A DNA stretch of 33,195 nucleotides from Synergistaceae bacterium (GCA_031274425.1 JAISQE010000122.1:1-33195), one strand, 5' to 3'. Shown: positions 1,249 through 10,158, numbered from the stretch's first letter. Made by a program: numbers and translations. The notes: generated from the letters alone by a model not told the origin.

Positions 1249-1557
1249 TCATTGCTTCGGCACAATTGCCAATTTCAAATTCAACGCTGAAAGAATAGCC
1301 ATGAGGCTTTTCAGTTCGGGATTCCCTTTCGGCGATAGCGTACGATACAGCGTTTTTGCGTTCAATTCGGTATTCGTGGCCACATGGTAAATGCCGCCGT
1401 TAGCTTCCGAGACGCGACGCAAGGCAAGCATCACCTCTCCCGGTTCCCCGTCTTCCAGAACGGCGCTAAGGTACTCAGCAGCGAACCCCGGATCATTCCT
1501 CAAGCTGTTTACTGTGGCGTCTTCGTGTTCGGCGTACGGTTTATTCATCGTCGTCAT
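1249..1557 (-). CDS. HigA-type antitoxin of a type II toxin-antitoxin pair
   Basis: A 102-residue protein that fits the 'putative addiction module antidote' group of helix-turn-helix antitoxins paired with Gp49/HigB-like toxins. The family-like parts are the N-terminal FAAEYLSAVLEDGEPGEVMLALRRV segment and the C-terminal helix-turn-helix region (TNTELNAKTLYRTLSPKGNPELKSLMAILSALNLKL, about residues 62-97). It should bind the toxin and, as the DNA-binding partner, repress the shared promoter. Its start lies inside the toxin gene (17-bp overlap), the usual toxin-first HigBA order. GGAGG sits only 2 bases before the first ATG and 11 before a second ATG at 1548, so the true start could be either. 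Base composition is less GC-rich than the neighbours, consistent with acquisition by transfer. Confidence 0.85.
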   Translation of the reverse strand: MTTMNKPYAEHEDATVNSLRNDPGFAAEYLSAVLEDGEPGEVMLALRRVSEANGGIYHVATNTELNAKTLYRTLSPKGNPELKSLMAILSALNLKLAIVPKQ

Positions 1558-1876
1558 TTCCTCCCCTCGCCTTAAAATCAGCTAAATATTTAATAGCCTG
1601 GTCGATATTCTGCGTCTGTGTTGACTTATCCCCGGCGCAGAGCAGCAATATAAAATCGTTGCGCAATCTAGAGAAATAAACTCTATAACCTGGGCCTTTG
1701 TCGATTTTAAGTTCCGATACACCATCCCGGCAAAACTTACAATCACCGAAATTTTCCTCAGAAAGACGGTCTACACGACGCATCACAGCAATTCTTCCCG
1801 CCATGTCACGCAAAGAGTCAATCCACGTCTGGTAAACGTCCTTATTGCCTTGAGTTCGATAGTGTATGAGTCTCAT
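1541..1876 (-). CDS. RelE/HigB-superfamily toxin (phage Gp49-like)
   Basis: A 111-residue protein matching the small RelE/ParE-fold toxins of the Gp49-like/HigB group, which in studied members cleave mRNA on the ribosome. Recognisable are ENFGDCK, GVSELKIDKGPGYRVYF and the C-terminal LLLCAGDKSTQTQNIDQAIKYL, in the family order. I start it at the ATG of MRLIHYRT because family members begin at this point; the frame is open 11 codons further upstream (GTG/ATG near 1909) but that stretch has no homologous look and no Shine-Dalgarno. With this start a promoter places the transcript start at or next to the ATG, so the mRNA may be leaderless. It overlaps the antitoxin gene. Confidence 0.88.
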   Translation of the reverse strand: MRLIHYRTQGNKDVYQTWIDSLRDMAGRIAVMRRVDRLSEENFGDCKFCRDGVSELKIDKGPGYRVYFSRLRNDFILLLCAGDKSTQTQNIDQAIKYLADFKARGGNDDDE

Positions 1877-1911
1877 GACATGAGTGTAGCTTAAAAGCGA
1901 CAACATCACAA
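1872..1911 (-). promoter_or_regulatory. Promoter and palindromic operator of the toxin-antitoxin pair
   Basis: On the minus strand TTGTGA (1906-1911) and TACACT (1883-1888) are separated by exactly 17 bp, a sigma-70 type promoter. The palindrome CTCATG-A-CATGAG (1872-1884) overlaps the -10 edge and the toxin ATG, where a HigA-like repressor could bind for autoregulation. Upstream (about 1920-1942) the motif TAGTTTCA is imperfectly repeated. The promoter call is from sequence; the operator role is inferred. Confidence 0.5.
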
Positions 1912-2041
1912 GGCACTCGGTGAAACTACATGAAACTATGTGAAGCTCAACAAAAAATAAACGGATAACGCTGAACGCTACCCGTTGAGACTTGCTTTAT
2001 CAGGAATTCGGCGGGGTGGCCTTCCCGCGCGGCTTGGCCCC

Positions 2042-5000
2042 CTACCAGGGTATGCCGACGTACTTGAAGATCGCCCAGTGGCGAGGGGCTTTGAACTCGC
2101 CGCTCAAAAGCGCTAGCTGCGCGTCCCTGAGCGCGTCCACGGGCTCGCGCCCGTCCAGTATTCCTTCGTAGAACTTCGGCATGAATCGAGCGGCGCTTTC
2201 ATCCACGGCCCTCCATCGCGTCAGGATGGTTCCCTTCGCGCCGCCGGCCAGCAGCACCGTCGAGAGCCCGAACATCCCGTCGCCCACGTAGAGGTCGCCA
2301 AGGCCGGTTTCGCAAGCCGAGAGGGTGATCAGGTCGGCGTTCCACCTGACCATGGCCAGCTCGCCCATCTGGAGGAAAGAGTCGTTGCCGTTGTCCCGTA
2401 TCGGCGAGAGGACAAGGCCGGGCTGAAGGTCCGGAATCGCGGTGCGGTCGTAACCGTGGCACGCGATGTGGACGTAGCGATACTTCCCGGGGTCGCTTTC
2501 CCAGAAATCGCTCTCGGACGCGTGAGTGGCCAGCAAAACCAACGGGGCCGAACTCGATTTGCCGTTCCATAGTTTCCTCAGGTCGTCGGCTTCGCTCTGG
2601 GAACCGTCCAGCGGCTTGATGAACTTGCCGAAGTCGTTTTTGACGTTGTAGGCCAGCTCCGACCGCTTCTTCGTCTCGCCAAGGACGTCACCGGACCAGA
2701 GCGACTCTATGTCCCCCATGATTTTTCCGATCCGCTCCTTGTCGGCGCCGGAAAGGGCCGCCTTCAAGTCGACTCCCAGACGTTCCTTCAGCATTTTTTC
2801 GAAGTCGGGGTCCTCATTCAACGCCAAACTCAAAGACGGTCTCCATTCCCTCGGTTTTTGGAGCAGAGGCGCGTAAGACGGGTTCGCCATCAGCAGCAGC
2901 GACCTGTCCTCCGGAGCCCGCGCCTCTCCCTCCCGCGTCAGCAGATAGGCGCTCGGCAGTTCGGCAAAGGTCCAGTCTTCCACCAAATAGCGAGCTTTGC
3001 CGTCGTCGCCTTTTTTTTGAAGAGCTTCCAGCGGAAGCACGTAAAGGATGTCGTGGGGAATGACAAGAATTTTCCTGATATCCCCGCAAGCCGAAGCGAT
3101 CGGCTGGAAAAGCGCCTCCCCCACGTCCTCCGGCGACAGGCCGCACGCGGTGGCGTCCAGCCGTTGTTTGTCATATTCGTTTTTATCCTCGCCTCCGTCA
3201 ACGAGACGCCGCCAGTAGGAATAACCAAAAAGCGAGTCGTAATCCAAGTCGAGCGGAACGACTGCCGCTTCGTCGGAGCGCGTCAGCAATATGGCGAAAG
3301 ACAGCTTCGGCGAGATGTAATAATTGACAAGACCCCAATCGTCCGGCAGCTTGGCCCGAACGGAATCGACGCCGAGAACCTCGTCCAGGTCCACCGTCCT
3401 GCCCCTGGTCAGCTCGACGCGCTCCTCCCGCAGCCGTTTCATCTCGTTGTTGGCCCGCGTCATCTCGTCCCGCTGTCCCGAGGAGCTCGCGCGACGGTAC
3501 GCGCCGTCCAGGGCGACCAGCCGCATCTCTATCTCCCGCACCTTCTCGCGGTCGGCGGGCGGCAGCGCGTTGAGGAACTCGCCGCCGGTGGTCGCCAGAA
3601 GCTCCTTCCAGCGGCGGTTCTTCATGCCCTCGATAAGCTCCCACAGCCGCGCGGCCTTTTTGGCGTCCTTGTCCTTTTCCCAAAGGGCAAAGCCGGAACG
3701 AATCGCCCCTCCGTACATCTCCGCGCGGTCGAAGGCGCTTTGGCTGGTGGTTCCCTCCACAGGGGACACCAGCTCCAGCTTCGCGATCGCCTTGTCGTAC
3801 TGTCGGGCCGCCTCGGCGTAGTCCCCGGTCTTCTCCGCGGCCAGCGCCATGATGGCGTAGGCTCGCCACTGCGTATCGGGCTTCGTTTCGACGTCTTCGC
3901 CGTCCTTGCTCCCCAGCAAAGACAGCAGTTCGCCGGCGGAGGCCTTGGCCGCGTCCCATTTCGACAGCGCGAGGCGTATCCTCCCCTGAAGCTCCAACAT
4001 GGAAAGCCGGTCGTCATACGATATGTTGTCCTTGGAGGCGAGGATTGCGCCTATATTGACGGCCTCGTCGGTCACGTCCATAAGGGCGAGGTTTTCGGCG
4101 ACGGCCCTCAGCCTCTCCGCGCGCTTGGCCGTCGTTTCGGGATCTTCCAGGGTCAGGTCGAACTCCGACGCGAAAGTTTTTGCCGCCTTACCGACGGCAT
4201 CCCCGAAATTAGAGAAAAATTTGACCCAGTCTTTGTCGAGGGCCGGCGAAATTTCCAGCTCCTTCATGACAAGAACGCGCCGCCTCATGTTGGACCAGGC
4301 GTTCAAGTATTTGAGCATCTCGTCTCCGGCGTCGATGGCGGCGAGCATGTAGGCGCTGGTTTTGGGGGCGAGCTCCTTCGCCTCGGAGGCGAGCTGCCGC
4401 TGGCCCGCTTTCTTCAACGACCGATGGGTGCTGTTTAGGACGCGCAGCAGAATTTCCTCGAGTTTTTCTCTTTCCTCTTTCCCTTCCCCCGCAAGCTGTT
4501 TCGCCGCGTCGGAAAAAAGCGTTTTTCTAAGCCGCGTCTTCAAGGCGATCGGCAGCGCTTCCGCGTCGAGCAAGGCCTTTTGAATCGCCCTCGTTTCCTC
4601 GGCGTTGGGGGAAAGGCGCTTGACCATCTCGGCGATGGCTTGCGCATCCGTCTCGATGCCGCTCTTGGCAGGCTGCTGTTGGTCGTTTTCAGGTTCCGGC
4701 GCGTCCGAGTCCAACACGATGCCGCTCATTTGTTGGATCGGCAGGCCGGATTCCGGGAGGGTCAGCGAGTCTCCGCCGGCCAGCGAGCGTAAAAGTTTCG
4801 CGGCGGCGGCGAAGGCCGTTTTTACATAGTCCTCGTCCTTCGCCTCGCCCTTCCTGGCGGACAGCTCCCTGAGCGCCTCGGACGCTTTTCCCGCGAGCTC
4901 GGCGCGTTTTTCGCCTCGGCGCAACGCCGCGTCGCCGATCGACAGGCTGGCGGCGACCTCCTGATAGTAATTGCGAAGTTCCGGCGCGTTGCGCAGAGCG

Positions 5001-6475
5001 ACTTCGCGTATCGTCCGAAAGCCGTCGATACTTGGAATCGGCCTATCGGCCCGCAGGGAGTCCACGGTCTTCCATGCTCTATCAAATCCGCTGTCCCGGA
5101 CACTGTCCCGTTCTTGAGGAGACTTCTTTTTTTTGAGCTGGCGCGCCGTCAGAGCCGCGCGCCACGGCAAACCCTGGGCGGTTCTGTAATCCACCTTGCC
5201 GACCATGCCGAGTTCGTTTCTCAAGTCGCAGTGGTAGATGTCCAGCATCGCCATCAAGACCACGTCCATCTTCTGCGCCTCGAGCCCCTTCGAGAGGGCC
5301 TCCCGATAGTTGGCGGCCGCCTCGCTCCACATCCCAATCTTCTCGTACAACTCCCCGAGCTTCAAGAGGGACTGGGCGACGGAGGTGGGGTTGCCGGCGT
5401 CGACGGCCAGGGAATAAAATGTTTTGAAGTGATCCAGCGCGACGGCATATTTCCCCCTCATGGCCTCCAGAGTGCCGTAAACGTCGTTCACCGCCATGTT
5501 GAGCGCCACGTCTTTGTCGGAGGCCGCGACGGTCAGCAGTTGTTGCAGCTCCCGCTCGGCCTCGCCGAACTCGCCCAGGTACGTCAACGTCAGGGCGTAG
5601 TCCTTTTTCAGATTATCCACGTCAACCGCGGCGGCCCTGTCCGGGTACTTCGACACGATGTCCTCGCCCTTTTCGACGGCTTCGCCTATGGCGTCTTTGG
5701 CCTGGCCGAACGCCCCTGTGGACAGCAGAAACTGCCCCTTGTCCGCCATGGCCAAATAGAGCGCGATATTCTCCGCGTCGCCGGCTTTGGCGGCCTTCGC
5801 CAGCTTGGTCGCGTCGGCGATGACGCTGTCGTAGACGCGAAGGGCCTCGGCCTCGTCGCCGCGGACGCGGCCTATGATGTGCGCCTGTTCGAGCCGCACT
5901 CTCTGCCTGTCGGGCGGGGAGTTTTTGAAGGAGGCCTCGGCGTCTTTGAAGTGTTTTTCAGCCTCGTTCATGAGGCCCGTTTCGATTTTGACGCGCCCGA
6001 GGCCCTCTTGAGCCACGCCTCTGAGGGTGGCGTCTTTGCCGACGAGCTTCAGCTTCAGGCCCCGCTCGTAATACTCCCGCGCCTTGTCCCACGCCATCTC
6101 GTCCAGGTAGAGCTGAGCCGCGTAGAAGAGCGCCCGGCACTCGCCCGAGGCGTTTTTCGCGGCTTTATATTGTTCGGCCGCCTCCTCGAAAGACCGCCGC
6201 GCCGCCTCCTTCTGTCCTATCGACACGAGGCACAGCCCCCCGTTGAAGTAGGATTGACCGGATTTGAGCCTGTTTTTCTCTTTCGCGTACGCCGCCCCGG
6301 CGGCGTCGAAAGCCGAGGCGGCGCTATCCATCTTTCCCTCCTGATACGAGGACACCGCCCTCTTGAACGCCGCGTCCCCGGACTCCGCCGCGTACGAATC
6401 GCCCGAAAAAACGAAAATCAGGGAAACCAGGGAAATAATCGCGATCCACGATAAGAAAATATATTTTTTCGTCAT
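2042..6475 (-). CDS. Exported TPR-CHAT caspase-like protein
   Basis: A 1477-residue protein with a Sec signal peptide (KK, hydrophobic core about residues 5-24, cleavage after SYA near 30), then many TPR-like helical repeats (about 30-430), a long helical middle, a coiled-coil region with more TPRs (about 780-1010) and a C-terminal CHAT domain (about 1090-1477). CHAT is a caspase/separase-related cysteine peptidase fold. The catalytic pair is visible: His1340 in HIACHGYD and Cys1388 in LSACETGLG, followed by the GLSTVLLAGGAKG stretch typical of CHAT. An active, extracytoplasmic peptidase is therefore likely. It is the last of four minus-strand genes for exported proteins; a hairpin with T-run in the 94-bp gap to the preceding TPR gene may give it separate expression. 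Substrate unknown. The Cys and His codons were checked in the DNA. Confidence 0.88.
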   Translation of the reverse strand: MTKKYIFLSWIAIISLVSLIFVFSGDSYAAESGDAAFKRAVSSYQEGKMDSAASAFDAAGAAYAKEKNRLKSGQSYFNGGLCLVSIGQKEAARRSFEEAAEQYKAAKNASGECRALFYAAQLYLDEMAWDKAREYYERGLKLKLVGKDATLRGVAQEGLGRVKIETGLMNEAEKHFKDAEASFKNSPPDRQRVRLEQAHIIGRVRGDEAEALRVYDSVIADATKLAKAAKAGDAENIALYLAMADKGQFLLSTGAFGQAKDAIGEAVEKGEDIVSKYPDRAAAVDVDNLKKDYALTLTYLGEFGEAERELQQLLTVAASDKDVALNMAVNDVYGTLEAMRGKYAVALDHFKTFYSLAVDAGNPTSVAQSLLKLGELYEKIGMWSEAAANYREALSKGLEAQKMDVVLMAMLDIYHCDLRNELGMVGKVDYRTAQGLPWRAALTARQLKKKKSPQERDSVRDSGFDRAWKTVDSLRADRPIPSIDGFRTIREVALRNAPELRNYYQEVAASLSIGDAALRRGEKRAELAGKASEALRELSARKGEAKDEDYVKTAFAAAAKLLRSLAGGDSLTLPESGLPIQQMSGIVLDSDAPEPENDQQQPAKSGIETDAQAIAEMVKRLSPNAEETRAIQKALLDAEALPIALKTRLRKTLFSDAAKQLAGEGKEEREKLEEILLRVLNSTHRSLKKAGQRQLASEAKELAPKTSAYMLAAIDAGDEMLKYLNAWSNMRRRVLVMKELEISPALDKDWVKFFSNFGDAVGKAAKTFASEFDLTLEDPETTAKRAERLRAVAENLALMDVTDEAVNIGAILASKDNISYDDRLSMLELQGRIRLALSKWDAAKASAGELLSLLGSKDGEDVETKPDTQWRAYAIMALAAEKTGDYAEAARQYDKAIAKLELVSPVEGTTSQSAFDRAEMYGGAIRSGFALWEKDKDAKKAARLWELIEGMKNRRWKELLATTGGEFLNALPPADREKVREIEMRLVALDGAYRRASSSGQRDEMTRANNEMKRLREERVELTRGRTVDLDEVLGVDSVRAKLPDDWGLVNYYISPKLSFAILLTRSDEAAVVPLDLDYDSLFGYSYWRRLVDGGEDKNEYDKQRLDATACGLSPEDVGEALFQPIASACGDIRKILVIPHDILYVLPLEALQKKGDDGKARYLVEDWTFAELPSAYLLTREGEARAPEDRSLLLMANPSYAPLLQKPREWRPSLSLALNEDPDFEKMLKERLGVDLKAALSGADKERIGKIMGDIESLWSGDVLGETKKRSELAYNVKNDFGKFIKPLDGSQSEADDLRKLWNGKSSSAPLVLLATHASESDFWESDPGKYRYVHIACHGYDRTAIPDLQPGLVLSPIRDNGNDSFLQMGELAMVRWNADLITLSACETGLGDLYVGDGMFGLSTVLLAGGAKGTILTRWRAVDESAARFMPKFYEGILDGREPVDALRDAQLALLSGEFKAPRHWAIFKYVGIPW

Positions 6476-6522
6476 GGCTTTCTTATCTTTTCTTCCTTAT
6501 CTGTAAAATAGTGGAAACGTCA

Positions 6523-6548
6523 AAAATGAGAGAGCCCAAAGGCTCTGA
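6523..6548 (-). terminator. Hairpin with T-run between the TPR and TPR-CHAT genes
   Basis: Reading the minus strand, AGAGCC-TTTG-GGCTCT is followed by CTCATTTTTG. This is a short intrinsic-terminator-like hairpin directly after the TPR gene and before the CHAT gene. TTGACG overlaps the T-run and GATAAG follows 16 bp later, a weak promoter candidate for the CHAT gene. Partial termination with a second promoter is possible. Confidence 0.45.
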
Positions 6549-6569
6549 ATCCTCTGAGCTCTCGCCGTG

Positions 6570-7787
6570 TTAGCGCCGCTTGTTGACCTCTCTTACGTGA
6601 TCGCGGAAAACCAGGAAACCGGGCAGGTCGATGTAACTCACGACTTTCGTCACGTTGCCGCCCTCCGAGGCGCCGATCGTGGCGTTGACCTCCAGCGCGG
6701 CGAAAAATTGGGCCGTGGGAAGCCACATCGCCTCGCCGTGGAGGCCGGAATCGCCGAAGTACTCGTTCTCGCCGAACCTTTCGGTCAAAATGAGCAAACC
6801 CGCGTTGAAGATCTCGTCTCTGAGAGCGAGATTGCCCTTGCGGTTCTCCCAGACGGCGAAAATGTTGACCGCCAGCAGTTTGCCCTGAAACTCCTCCAGA
6901 AAGCAGACCTGCCCGTCGGCGTCGGCGTGGATCATCTCAGGCAGATCCGTAACCGGCATATCGACGAAGTGGAAGCGCACGCCGTATCTCGTTGCCTCAT
7001 CGAACGTACGATACGCGACGCCTCGCTGTTTCAGGCCGTCAAGAACGGACTCTATCGGCTCTCCCAGCTTGAACCCCAGCACCTCGTGCCCGCCATCGCC
7101 GGCTTTCCCCTCGGCCTTGCCCCGCTCCATGACCTTTTCCTGGCGCTCGCCCGCGTCGGACATGGTGGTTTCCTGCGTTTTTCCGGCCTCCGCGGCTTTC
7201 GTCGCCTTTTCCAGAAGGGATCGCGCCGACGCCTCGATGTCGTCCGCGGCGGATTTGTCCTTGGAGGCCAGGCGTCGCAGCGCGTCCTCCGTCGCGGCCG
7301 CGTCGCCCATCGACGCGTAGGCGATAGCGAGGCCCTTCAAGGAGCGGACGACCAGTTCGTCTTCGTCGGGAGAGAGATCGATGGCCTGCGTGAAGGCGCT
7401 TGCCGCCTCTTCGTATCCGCCGGCCCCCAACCAGGTCTCGCCCAATCCGACCTTCACCCATTTGGCCTGATCGCCGGGCAGCAGCAACTCCGCCCGCTCG
7501 AAGCCGTTCTTGGCCGACTCCCAGTCGCCCAGATAACGGTGGCACCAGCTTGCGAAATCGAGGGCCTCGCCGTTTTCCGGCTCCAGCGCCAGCACCTTGT
7601 CGAAGAGGGTGAGGGCGAGATTGTATTCCTTGACGTCGTACAGGTTTTTTGCCCTCTCGAAAAGAGTCGGAGCGGCCTCGGCCGAGAAGGAGAATAATAT
7701 CAGAGAAAATAACGTCAGGGAGAACAACGCCGCCGCGAAGGCGACAGCGGACGCGGCAAACGCGCGGCGCATTATTTTTCTTGCCAT
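6570..7787 (-). CDS. Exported TPR protein of unknown function
   Basis: A 405-residue protein with an N-terminal signal peptide (basic start, long Leu/Phe-rich hydrophobic core, AEA-AP cleavage near residue 39). TPR units cover about residues 40-200 (for example LFERAKNLYDVKEYNLALTLFDKVLALEP and ETWLGAGGYEEAASAFTQAIDLSP), then a Lys/Glu/Gly-rich linker (about 200-235), then a C-terminal globular domain (about 236-405; it begins EVLGFKLGEPIESVLDGLKQRGV and contains ENEYFGDSG) that I do not recognise. It lies 13 bp after the DUF4384 gene and before the CHAT gene, all on the same strand, so a shared envelope function is likely. ATG at 7772 is an alternative start; neither has a strong ribosome-binding site. 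Confidence 0.8.
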   Translation of the reverse strand: MARKIMRRAFAASAVAFAAALFSLTLFSLILFSFSAEAAPTLFERAKNLYDVKEYNLALTLFDKVLALEPENGEALDFASWCHRYLGDWESAKNGFERAELLLPGDQAKWVKVGLGETWLGAGGYEEAASAFTQAIDLSPDEDELVVRSLKGLAIAYASMGDAAATEDALRRLASKDKSAADDIEASARSLLEKATKAAEAGKTQETTMSDAGERQEKVMERGKAEGKAGDGGHEVLGFKLGEPIESVLDGLKQRGVAYRTFDEATRYGVRFHFVDMPVTDLPEMIHADADGQVCFLEEFQGKLLAVNIFAVWENRKGNLALRDEIFNAGLLILTERFGENEYFGDSGLHGEAMWLPTAQFFAALEVNATIGASEGGNVTKVVSYIDLPGFLVFRDHVREVNKRR

Positions 7788-7800
7788 AGCGCGAATCCGG

Positions 7801-8823
7801 CTACTCGTCGTTCTCGACGTTGATGCTGAAGGCCAGTTCCAATTGGGTTCCGTCTTCCAACTCCACTGTCGCTTTTATCGTGTCGACGCCGACGCTCTCC
7901 GCCGCCACAAGTTTCCATTTGTCCTCCTTGCGCGGCAAAATCAGTATCTCGCCGGGAGCGAAGGCGATGTCCGCGTTTTCCGGCAGCAAGTTGTTCGTGT
8001 TTTTCCCAGGGGCCTCGTCGACCAGGGAAACCAGCTTGCCGCCCTTATCGGAAAGTATTTTCACGAACACGCGCTCGCCCACCAGGAAACTCGTGCCGTT
8101 GGCCCAGGCCTTGATCGTCGCGTCCCCATGAGCGGCCACGCCGAAACCGGTCGGGGCGTCGCTCCCGTCCGTGGTCATGACGGCCAGGGAGGCCACGCTC
8201 CACTTGAGCTCCGCCTTGGCCGCTTCTTCTTCCTCATCCACATCCTCCTCGGTGAGCAGGATGTCGCGGGTGGCGCTCTTCGGATCTTTAATCACGCTGA
8301 AGGGCCCGGCCACGTCGTTGTTCTCCTTGTCGAAAACCGGGACGTCGTTGTTCGTGGCGATGGCCTTGATGACGTCTACCCCCACGGGGCCCCCGGCCTT
8401 CATGGAGAACTTCGCCCCCTGGGCCGGGATGCTGATCTCCTCGCCGGCCTTGACGAAGTTGTTCTCGACCCACTTGTTGGGGAAAAGGACGAGGATCTGT
8501 CCGCTGGGCGTAAAATCCAGAACCGTCACGTAGGCGTCGGTGTCGCTCTTGAAGGTGAGCGTTATTTTCTCGCCTATTTTGTAAACCCCGTCCGGCTTGT
8601 CGGACTTGAGGGACATCGTAAAGTCGTCCTTACGCATCTCCTCGACGCCGAGTCCGCCCGGAGTTTCGCCTACGGGCTTCTCCCCGGCGTCTTCCTCGTC
8701 TTCCTCCTCCAGCACGATGTCGCGCGTGGCCGTCGTGGCCCCGAATTTGACTTCAGCCCAAGCCGAAGTCCCCATAGCGAGGCAAAACAACGCCAACAAA
8801 AACGCTACGAAAATCTTTTTCAT
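7801..8823 (-). CDS. Exported protein with two DUF4384-like domains
   Basis: A 340-residue protein with a clear signal peptide (MKK, hydrophobic core, AWA-EV near residue 23). A DUF4384-type Ig-like domain is seen at about residues 67-160 (GEKITLTFKSDTDAYVTVLDF, then ILVLFPN and an end VGVDVIKAIAT). A second, more divergent copy follows at about 225-325 (GERVFVKILSDKGGKLVSLVDE ... NLLPEN ... VGVDTIKATVE). Each copy is preceded by the same acidic linker: ATRDIVLEEEDEED (32-45) and ATRDILLTEEDVDE (184-197). The gene is therefore an internal duplication. DUF4384 domains are known to accompany caspase-like peptidases, which fits the CHAT gene downstream. AAGGGAGG lies 8 bases before the ATG. Confidence 0.82.
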   Translation of the reverse strand: MKKIFVAFLLALFCLAMGTSAWAEVKFGATTATRDIVLEEEDEEDAGEKPVGETPGGLGVEEMRKDDFTMSLKSDKPDGVYKIGEKITLTFKSDTDAYVTVLDFTPSGQILVLFPNKWVENNFVKAGEEISIPAQGAKFSMKAGGPVGVDVIKAIATNNDVPVFDKENNDVAGPFSVIKDPKSATRDILLTEEDVDEEEEAAKAELKWSVASLAVMTTDGSDAPTGFGVAAHGDATIKAWANGTSFLVGERVFVKILSDKGGKLVSLVDEAPGKNTNNLLPENADIAFAPGEILILPRKEDKWKLVAAESVGVDTIKATVELEDGTQLELAFSINVENDE

Positions 8824-8850
8824 AAAACGAACCTCCCTTAAGTAAGTTTA

Positions 8851-8890
8851 AATTAGGGGGGCGGAGCCCCCCTGAAACCCCCGAGGGGGC
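8851..8890. repeat. GC-rich palindromic intergenic element, copy B
   Basis: GGGGGGC-GGA-GCCCCCC (8856-8872) is followed by TGAAACCCCC and a small CCCCC-GAGGGGG inverted repeat. It fills the 79-bp gap between the coiled-coil gene and the DUF4384 gene. It could attenuate read-through on the minus strand (TAATTTAAA follows) but there is no clean T-run. It shares its core with copies near 1209, 19279 and 28367. Confidence 0.7.
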
Positions 8891-8902
8891 GATCGGCGCT
8901 TG

Positions 8903-9829
8903 CTATTTGGCGCTCTTGGCGACGGTGTCGACGAACGGGCTGTATTCTCCGACCAGTCCCTTGATGCTCTTGCTGAGGGCTTCCAACCGACCCTGAATTT
9001 CGGTGATCTCCTTGGGAAGCGCGCCTTTGCCGCTGGCGGCTTGTGTGATCATGCCAAGCGGGTTCTTCGCGGAGCCGGCAACGGACTGAACGCTCTGCGT
9101 CAGCTCCTGTATGAGCTTGGGGATCTCTTGGAGAATCGTGTTCAGGTTGGCGATGTCGTTTTTACCGCTGGCGACGACTTGCTCGTTGAGGGTCTTTTTC
9201 TGGTCGGCGTCCAGGTCGCCCGGTTTCAGCGTCGCCGCCACCTCGCGGCCCTCGCGAAGGGACTTCTGGCTTGGGGCCTGAATATCGCGGTCTATGGCTT
9301 TCATCTGATCTTGCGAGAGCTGGTCGATCTGCAGATTGTTCACCGCGGTCTCCATCGCTTTATAGAAACTCTTCACTCGGGAGATGGCGCCCTCGTCGCC
9401 GCTTATGCCCTGAATCAGCACGATCTCGCGGTCGGTGAGCGTCTTGAGCTCGACAAGGGCCTCTCGCGCCTCGGGTATGCGCTGTTCCAGGTCCCTGCGC
9501 AGGGCGGAGGCGTCAAGGTCTTTCTCGAGCGCGGAGTAATATTCGCTCTGCTTGTTTGTAGCGGCGGTGATGGTCTGGAATATCTTGGCCCTCTTGGCGG
9601 CGATGCTCTCCAGCTCTTTGGCCTCTTCGGTCTTGCCGGCCTTTTTGGCTTTGTTCTCCTGCGCGACTTCATCCACCACACCGACCCCCTGAAGGCCGCC
9701 CAGCGCCGAGGCCGCCGCGCTCGTGCTCTGGGTACCCGCGTCTATGGCGGACTTGGCCGCGATTGCCAAAGCCACGACCGCGGCGATCAGCAACAATACA
9801 ATAATGCCTATGTACAACTTACGTTTCAC
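8903..9829 (-). CDS. Membrane-anchored coiled-coil protein of unknown function
   Basis: A 308-residue protein: a short basic N-terminus (MKRK), one transmembrane helix (about residues 5-25), an Ala/Ser/Gly-rich linker, then almost entirely helical, charged sequence with heptad-like patterns (residues about 50-300), so it should sit in the inner membrane with a long extracytoplasmic coiled coil. No enzyme motif is visible and I do not recognise the family. The start is the GTG at 9829: GGAGG lies 8 bases before it, whereas the GTG three codons upstream is part of the Shine-Dalgarno sequence itself. It is the first gene of the exported-protein group that ends with the CHAT peptidase and is preceded by a structured leader of about 180 bases. 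Confidence 0.75.
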   Translation of the reverse strand: MKRKLYIGIIVLLLIAAVVALAIAAKSAIDAGTQSTSAAASALGGLQGVGVVDEVAQENKAKKAGKTEEAKELESIAAKRAKIFQTITAATNKQSEYYSALEKDLDASALRRDLEQRIPEAREALVELKTLTDREIVLIQGISGDEGAISRVKSFYKAMETAVNNLQIDQLSQDQMKAIDRDIQAPSQKSLREGREVAATLKPGDLDADQKKTLNEQVVASGKNDIANLNTILQEIPKLIQELTQSVQSVAGSAKNPLGMITQAASGKGALPKEITEIQGRLEALSKSIKGLVGEYSPFVDTVAKSAK

Positions 9830-9887
9830 AAAAACCACCTCCGTATAATTTTTGCCGCAAGCCCTTTATTTTTTCATAAAGCGCTGG

Positions 9888-10035: not shown

Positions 10036-10158
10036 AATCAAACGCCAAACACATATTTTTAGCCTCTTTCCTTTTACCGATCTTATTCTATAACTCAGAA
10101 AATTTTTCGTCAAGGAAAGGCGTGATCCGTGAAAGGCATAACCCGGTAACCCGATTGG

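Follow-up and report, generated by a model that had tools for sequence, protein, structure and literature searches.

A conserved gene set of Synergistota, encoding TPR-CHAT, DUF4384, TPR and coiled-coil proteins, that very probably forms an envelope protease module

The best-studied CHAT and separase-like proteases act inside cells, and Craspase, the type III-E CRISPR system with Csx29 and Csx30, is cytoplasmic and triggered by RNA. Here we compare such systems with a gene set from an anaerobic bacterium of the Synergistaceae, located in a stretch of 33,195 nucleotides that we refer to as the window (GCA_031274425.1 JAISQE010000122.1:1-33195). In this set a TPR-CHAT gene is accompanied by genes for a protein with two DUF4384 domains, for a TPR protein and for CC, a coiled-coil protein with a membrane anchor. 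Csx29 shares with the window protein the combination of TPRs and a C-terminal CHAT domain as well as the same fold, and it cuts the two-domain partner Csx30, encoded next to it, in a flexible loop (PMC10028731), a layout that has a parallel here. However, NCBIfam NF041237 scores the window CHAT at 22.1 bits against a cut-off of 300, and the partners are different, being DUF4384, CC and TPR proteins; no family of Cas7-11, Csx30 or Csx31 was recognized among them with Pfam, NCBIfam or PADLOC. Separase (family C50) has helical repeats followed by a caspase-like C-terminal domain, an architecture that the window protein appears to share, judging from structural matches of its model, but separase is eukaryotic and directed at cohesin, and its residue D2151 is not kept here.

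Among bacterial proteins, the cyanobacterial HetF is also membrane-associated and combines CHAT and TPRs with the catalytic dyad. Its CHAT domain is nevertheless N-terminal (aa 1-555) and followed by a transmembrane segment and the TPRs (PMC8406250), whereas that of the window protein occupies aa 1120-1474 of 1477. A further parallel is a TPR-CHAT protein encoded on a cyanobacterial plasmid (Calothrix NIES-4105 BAZ65048.1), which possesses a signal-peptide-like N-terminus, TPRs and a C-terminal CHAT domain, and which is the nearest outgroup in a small tree. The neighbours of the cyanobacterial genes are annotated as CHASE2, DUF928 or hypothetical proteins, none of them as DUF4384 or CC, and we found no functional study of these exported plasmid proteins. 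A Rhizobium plasmid cluster is similar in that a signal-peptide-bearing DUF4384 protein adjoins signal-peptide-bearing caspase-like proteins; it differs by its p20 caspase and trypsin domains, by serpin and kinase neighbours and by the lack of CHAT, and its DUF4384 protein has an OmpA-like end and no TRDI motif (see below). The Rhizobium locus (L110 68-14180, NZ_CP054023) carries genes for an exported caspase-family protein, a DUF4384-OmpA-like protein, a trypsin-caspase-DUF4384 protein and a serpin beside a Ser/Thr kinase, and looks like another envelope protease set.

Searches against the defence systems of PADLOC, including SAVED-CHAT, returned only generic TPR models (E 0.003), Pfam gave no match to the p20 caspase of orthocaspases in the four proteins, and our literature search revealed no CHAT-DUF4384 or periplasmic TPR-CHAT system. 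By its CHAT score and dyad, the window protein is classified as a TPR-CHAT protein and not as Csx29, HetF, a PADLOC system or an orthocaspase. The first-pass annotation had stated that no described system is known to have this set; this holds in so far as no family or paper matches it, but an exported TPR-CHAT protein alone is not unique, as the cyanobacterial plasmid shows. What appears new by these searches is the gene combination, the duplicated TRDI motif and a hairpin between the genes, while both exported TPR-CHAT proteins and caspase-DUF4384 clusters have parallels.

Four minus-strand genes had been proposed at 2042-9829, and all four open reading frames were recovered there (Table 1). 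The intergenic gaps are 79 bp (CC-DUF4384), 13 bp (DUF4384-TPR) and 94 bp (TPR-CHAT), so that the first replaces an earlier value of 73 bp and the other two agree with those given before. An ORF-finding tool places the start of CC at the GTG at 9838; the GTG at 9829 is supported by a GGAGG located 8 nt ahead of it. The CHAT domain is well recognized (PF12770, 165.7 bits against a cut-off of 24) and is accompanied by TPRs. No Pfam family exceeds the cut-off in CC, and we regard its weak matches as coiled-coil noise, no curated family being among them. As proposed before, each of the four proteins seems to carry a signal peptide or membrane anchor, and so does every full-length homologue, as judged from the N-termini by hydropathy and by eye. 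The strongest N-terminal hydrophobic segment among the four belongs to CC. The flanking genes scanned in the window encode NRDD, radical SAM, toxin-antitoxin and ABC transport proteins.

Table 1. Coordinates of the genes, motifs, residues and predicted signals of the set in the window
Feature	Position	Strand	Evidence
CC: N-terminal membrane anchor and long periplasmic coiled coil (predicted), 308 aa from GTG 9829	8903..9829	-	ORF, SD site, hydropathy, homologue at each complete locus
DUF4384 protein: predicted signal peptide, two DUF4384 domains, acidic disordered linkers, 340 aa	7801..8823	-	PF14326 5.8e-31
TRDI motif 1, aa 33-36, near mature N-terminus	8716..8727	-	TR[DG]I scan and pattern search
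TRDI motif 2, aa 185-188, linker between both DUF4384 domains	8260..8271	-	TR[DG]I scan and pattern search
TPR protein: predicted signal peptide, TPR, conserved C-terminal domain, 405 aa	6570..7787	-	TPR_2 2.6e-11
Hairpin resembling a terminator, TPR-CHAT gap; probably an attenuator	6530..6563	-	13-pair stem then TCATTTTTGA
TPR-CHAT: predicted signal peptide, TPRs, long helical region, C-terminal CHAT, 1477 aa	2042..6475	-	PF12770 2e-48
Glu1321, candidate S1 acidic residue	2513..2515	-	invariant 15/15
Catalytic His1340 (HIACHGYDR)	2456..2458	-	invariant 15/15
Catalytic Cys1388 (LSACETGLG)	2312..2314	-	invariant 15/15
Sigma-70-like promoter upstream of CC, TTGACG-17-TAGAAT	10085..10113	-	consensus match only
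Terminator-like site after the CHAT gene	1960..1986	-	12-pair stem and T run, consensus match only

The four genes form a real conserved unit. Our search of 188 Synergistota genomes recovered the set at 16 loci in 15 genomes belonging to nine genera and three families. At 14 of these loci, in 13 genomes, the four genes are contiguous; in G043 the set is divided between two contigs, and in G158 the end of a contig truncates it. The same neighbours were thus kept in composition at all 16 loci, which excludes a chance arrangement, and within Synergistota the set is not confined to close relatives. Outside this phylum a scan of a separate collection with two strict peptide patterns only gave no further set, the named records being Synergistaceae or Synergistales and mostly metagenome bins. 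The genome of the window itself contains a second complete copy on another contig (C73), with a CC of 620 aa, DUF4384, TPR and CHAT genes and a second TPR gene; its CHAT is 50% identical to that of the window and its DUF4384 protein 63-64%. Among all set loci the CHAT identity drops to ~30%. The gene order varies (CC-DUF4384-TPR-CHAT, DUF4384-TPR-CHAT-CC, DUF4384-CC-CHAT-TPR and CC-CHAT-TPR-DUF4384), and the flanking genes have almost nothing in common except among close relatives. Nine loci (C73, L024-L028, L033, L066 and L067) have a further TPR gene behind the set, which the window lacks.

The DUF4384 family PF14326 occurs in 16 of the 188 genomes, exactly the 15 with the module and one other (G023), and the module CHAT is present in 15 of these 16, once as an N-terminus only at a contig end. 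In G023, a 75%-complete genome, locus L068 has contiguous CC, DUF4384 and two TPR genes with no CHAT gene between them, reflecting either a loss of CHAT or an incomplete assembly, and this is a point against an obligate link of CHAT with the set. Matches to CC itself were found in many genomes; they were discarded as uninformative on the module, being mostly to the C-terminal TPR-like part of CC.

Trees of CHAT, DUF4384 and CC agree in their well-supported clades with one conflict, the place of the window pair in the CC tree. The window set groups with that of G037, the two sets of family f4 fall together and the sets of genus g9 fall with family f3, while the C73 copy is placed with genus g8 in the CHAT and CC trees. 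The positions of the two copies of this genome on different branches imply that the set was duplicated or transferred as a whole. Distance matrices of the proteins are correlated (r 0.84-0.89; 0 of 10000 permutations as high), with the reservation that the permutation test overstates independence because related genomes share ancestry. In the small tree the module CHATs make up one clade, separated with a support of 100 from the CHATs of cyanobacteria and Azospirillum and from the other ones of Synergistota.

The His1340/Cys1388 pair, earlier described as intact, is present in the window CHAT and, far from being lost in most homologues, is retained in 15 of 15 Synergistota module proteins. The surrounding motifs HxxCHGYDR and LSAC(E/D/N)TGLG are equally kept (15/15), with one protein having Ala for the Gly after His. 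A structure model of aa 866-1477 is of moderate quality (pLDDT 67) and matches Csx29/Craspase and separase (human, yeast and fungal structures) in Foldseek at E 1e-7 to 1e-3, and Arg-gingipain at E 0.02; the TPR-CHAT region also has a structural match to DdvA, a transmembrane anti-sigma factor (PDB 8rot, 8rw5; E 2e-5), a match that we take as a lead only, the assignment of DdvA as a periplasmic CHAT protein being tentative. Searched against PDB sequences, the full-length CHAT profile recovered TPR proteins only, a CHAT-only profile reached Craspase at E 0.03, and neither matched a separase sequence.

With regard to specificity, the P1 Arg of separase substrates is held by D2151, the counterpart of which in Csx29 is K670 (PMC9729208). 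A separase-type recognition of Arg was rejected for the module, as the residue at this place, eight after a conserved Trp, is Ala or Pro in a hand alignment (PMC9729208). Gingipain anchors its P1 Arg by Asp163, located behind beta1 where helix alpha1 begins, and separase has a Glu nearby (PMC4626109). In our model Glu1321 begins the helix at 456-461 (aa 1321-1326), after the strand that precedes the strand of the catalytic His, and appears to sit at the published place of the gingipain anchor (PMC4626109). It does not serve as a mark of the module, since Glu is also found in six of seven non-module Synergistota CHATs. A preference of the module CHAT for a basic P1 residue is no more than plausible.

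The DUF4384 domain has been reported in caspase homologues (PMC6426788, PMC7475262). In the window protein the second domain is divergent (24.6 bits against the 27-bit Pfam cut-off), and the AlphaFold2 model (m5e60cf7e655a, pLDDT 73) has the fold of a tandem beta-sandwich with weak structural matches to RbmA and arrestins. Each domain is preceded by TRDI with a hydrophobic pair behind it, in most cases V, L, I or M and then L, and with acidic residues after the pair. Of 18 DUF4384 proteins 17 have TRDI in both places, and each of these 17 is encoded either within a module or next to genes of a module. The remaining protein (L069 of G023) has TRGI once and comes from a short contig with no other module gene; there the DUF4384 gene adjoins genes for peptidase-like and AAA ATPase-like proteins, identified from sequence. 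Motif 1 lies between segments 15-34 and 42-59 and motif 2 inside segment 181-203, all with pLDDT < 50, and the invariance of TRDI within or beside such low-confidence stretches indicates a short linear motif under selection. In the DNA of the genome the pattern of TRDI plus two hydrophobic residues has eight matches, four of which are the motifs of the two DUF4384 proteins. The other four look like chance (three in implausible frames, one in a solute-binding protein), and TRDI was dismissed as a marker of further substrates. Of the three partners, earlier taken as adaptors, the DUF4384 protein resembles a client no less than an adaptor.

At 14 of the 16 loci the stretch between the DUF4384 and CHAT genes contains a strong hairpin, which in most cases resembles a terminator. 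In nine loci with the order DUF4384-TPR-CHAT and a full gap it is found between TPR and CHAT (best dG -18.7 to -32.0); the whole-gap z is -2.65 to -4.18 in eight of them, including the window (z -3.76), and -1.12 in the C73 copy, and a T run occurs in or close behind the stem in seven of the nine. Five loci with the order DUF4384-CC-CHAT (L029-L032, L070) have a hairpin between DUF4384 and CC instead (z -2.4 to -4.4), and L065 and L033 have none between DUF4384 and CHAT. The hairpin sequences and the gap that holds them differ between loci, but the placement with respect to the DUF4384 and CHAT genes is constant. Control gaps were mixed (z -1.0, 0.5 and 1.3, but also -2.6 and -2.75); hence strong structure alone is not rare in such gaps. 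The hairpin probably attenuates transcription, with CHAT made in lower amounts than the DUF4384 protein.

The set is very probably an envelope protease module. We infer its location, assembly, activity, client and signal as follows. CC would be anchored in the inner membrane and extend its coiled coil into the periplasm, and the DUF4384, TPR and TPR-CHAT proteins would be exported and assemble on it. Transcription through the DUF4384 gene would partly stop at the hairpin before CHAT and thereby leave the DUF4384 protein in excess over the protease. A signal reaching the TPR or CC parts may then activate the CHAT domain with its His1340 and Cys1388, and this domain would cut a small set of clients. 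The likeliest of these would be the DUF4384 protein, with a cut in either TRDI motif or in both (probably TR|DI), and such cuts would free its two beta-sandwich domains. That the DUF4384 protein is either cut directly by CHAT or tied to it as an obligate partner is about as likely as not, and the account as a whole, an envelope separase-like module with the DUF4384 protein as likeliest client cut at TRDI, is put forward tentatively. Cleavage at TRDI itself is possible although somewhat doubtful. Rather unlikely in all its parts together is a periplasmic separase-like switch, in which a CHAT outside the cytoplasm cuts a client with two TRDI sites at a ratio set by the hairpin, on a coiled-coil membrane platform that is combined with a trypsin-like protease in other lineages.

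In the main rival account the TRDI motifs would instead serve docking or assembly. Each TRDI strand would bind to the groove of a TPR or to a second DUF4384 domain, and the DUF4384 protein would be an adaptor or scaffold presenting other envelope clients to CHAT. The sequence of TRDI is far stricter than most cut sites, no residue is essential for cleavage of Csx30 (PMC10028731), the model suggests a short strand (aa 37-40) right behind motif 1, and the predicted tandem beta-sandwich with its weak likeness to RbmA and arrestins fits an adaptor as well. Docking alone, however, does not explain why the two copies share a basic residue in matching positions, and we consider it a possible but doubtful reading. 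The same likeness, here to RbmA as a matrix protein, together with the position of the DUF4384 gene upstream of the hairpin, which implies a probably more abundant product, would suit a structural envelope component that CHAT matures while a surface structure is built or remodelled; yet no outer-membrane secretion gene or sorting signal was found in the set and no surface-protein family matches it, which leaves this alternative improbable.

Where CHAT proteases accompany CRISPR, SAVED or gasdermins they act in defence, and the module could accordingly act in envelope-level defence or cell death, CHAT being activated by phage or stress damage and cutting partners to the harm of the cell. The patchy occurrence among relatives, the two copies in one genome and the toxin-antitoxin pair next door point in this direction, but PADLOC matched nothing beyond generic TPR models, the set includes no toxic effector or membrane-pore protein, and the flanks consist of ordinary chromosomal genes with no shared defence genes, so that we regard a defence role as quite improbable. 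That the CHAT protein is a scaffold with its dyad unused as a peptidase could appeal to the low confidence of the catalytic region in the model; it is very improbable in view of the retention of both residues, His and Cys, by all 15 proteins at identities down to ~30%.

If the envelope protease account is true, regulated caspase-style proteolysis would extend to the bacterial envelope, and DUF4384, a domain also accompanying caspase homologues elsewhere, would gain its first testable role. CC seems to have relatives outside the module as well. In one genome (G068; L172 486-8321) a distant relative (profile probability 99.8%, 20% identity over 312 columns) heads an operon encoding FHA, VWA-FHA, TM2-FHA, trypsin-like peptidase-FHA and Ser/Thr kinase-Sel1 proteins. 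That a CC protein occurs beside another type of protease with a signal peptide would agree with its serving as a platform or sensor.

Two further features of the window were noted. The toxin-antitoxin pair (1249-1909, minus strand; a weak Gp49-like match and an HI1420-type antidote) lies directly downstream of the CHAT gene, at the spot of the second TPR gene in other loci. Moreover, similar GC-rich palindromes of the GGGGCGGAGCCCC type are found at 8840-8880, within the CC-DUF4384 gap, and at 1185-1224; they are possibly REP-like repeats, and related palindromes are present in the gaps of two other loci (L025 and L026).
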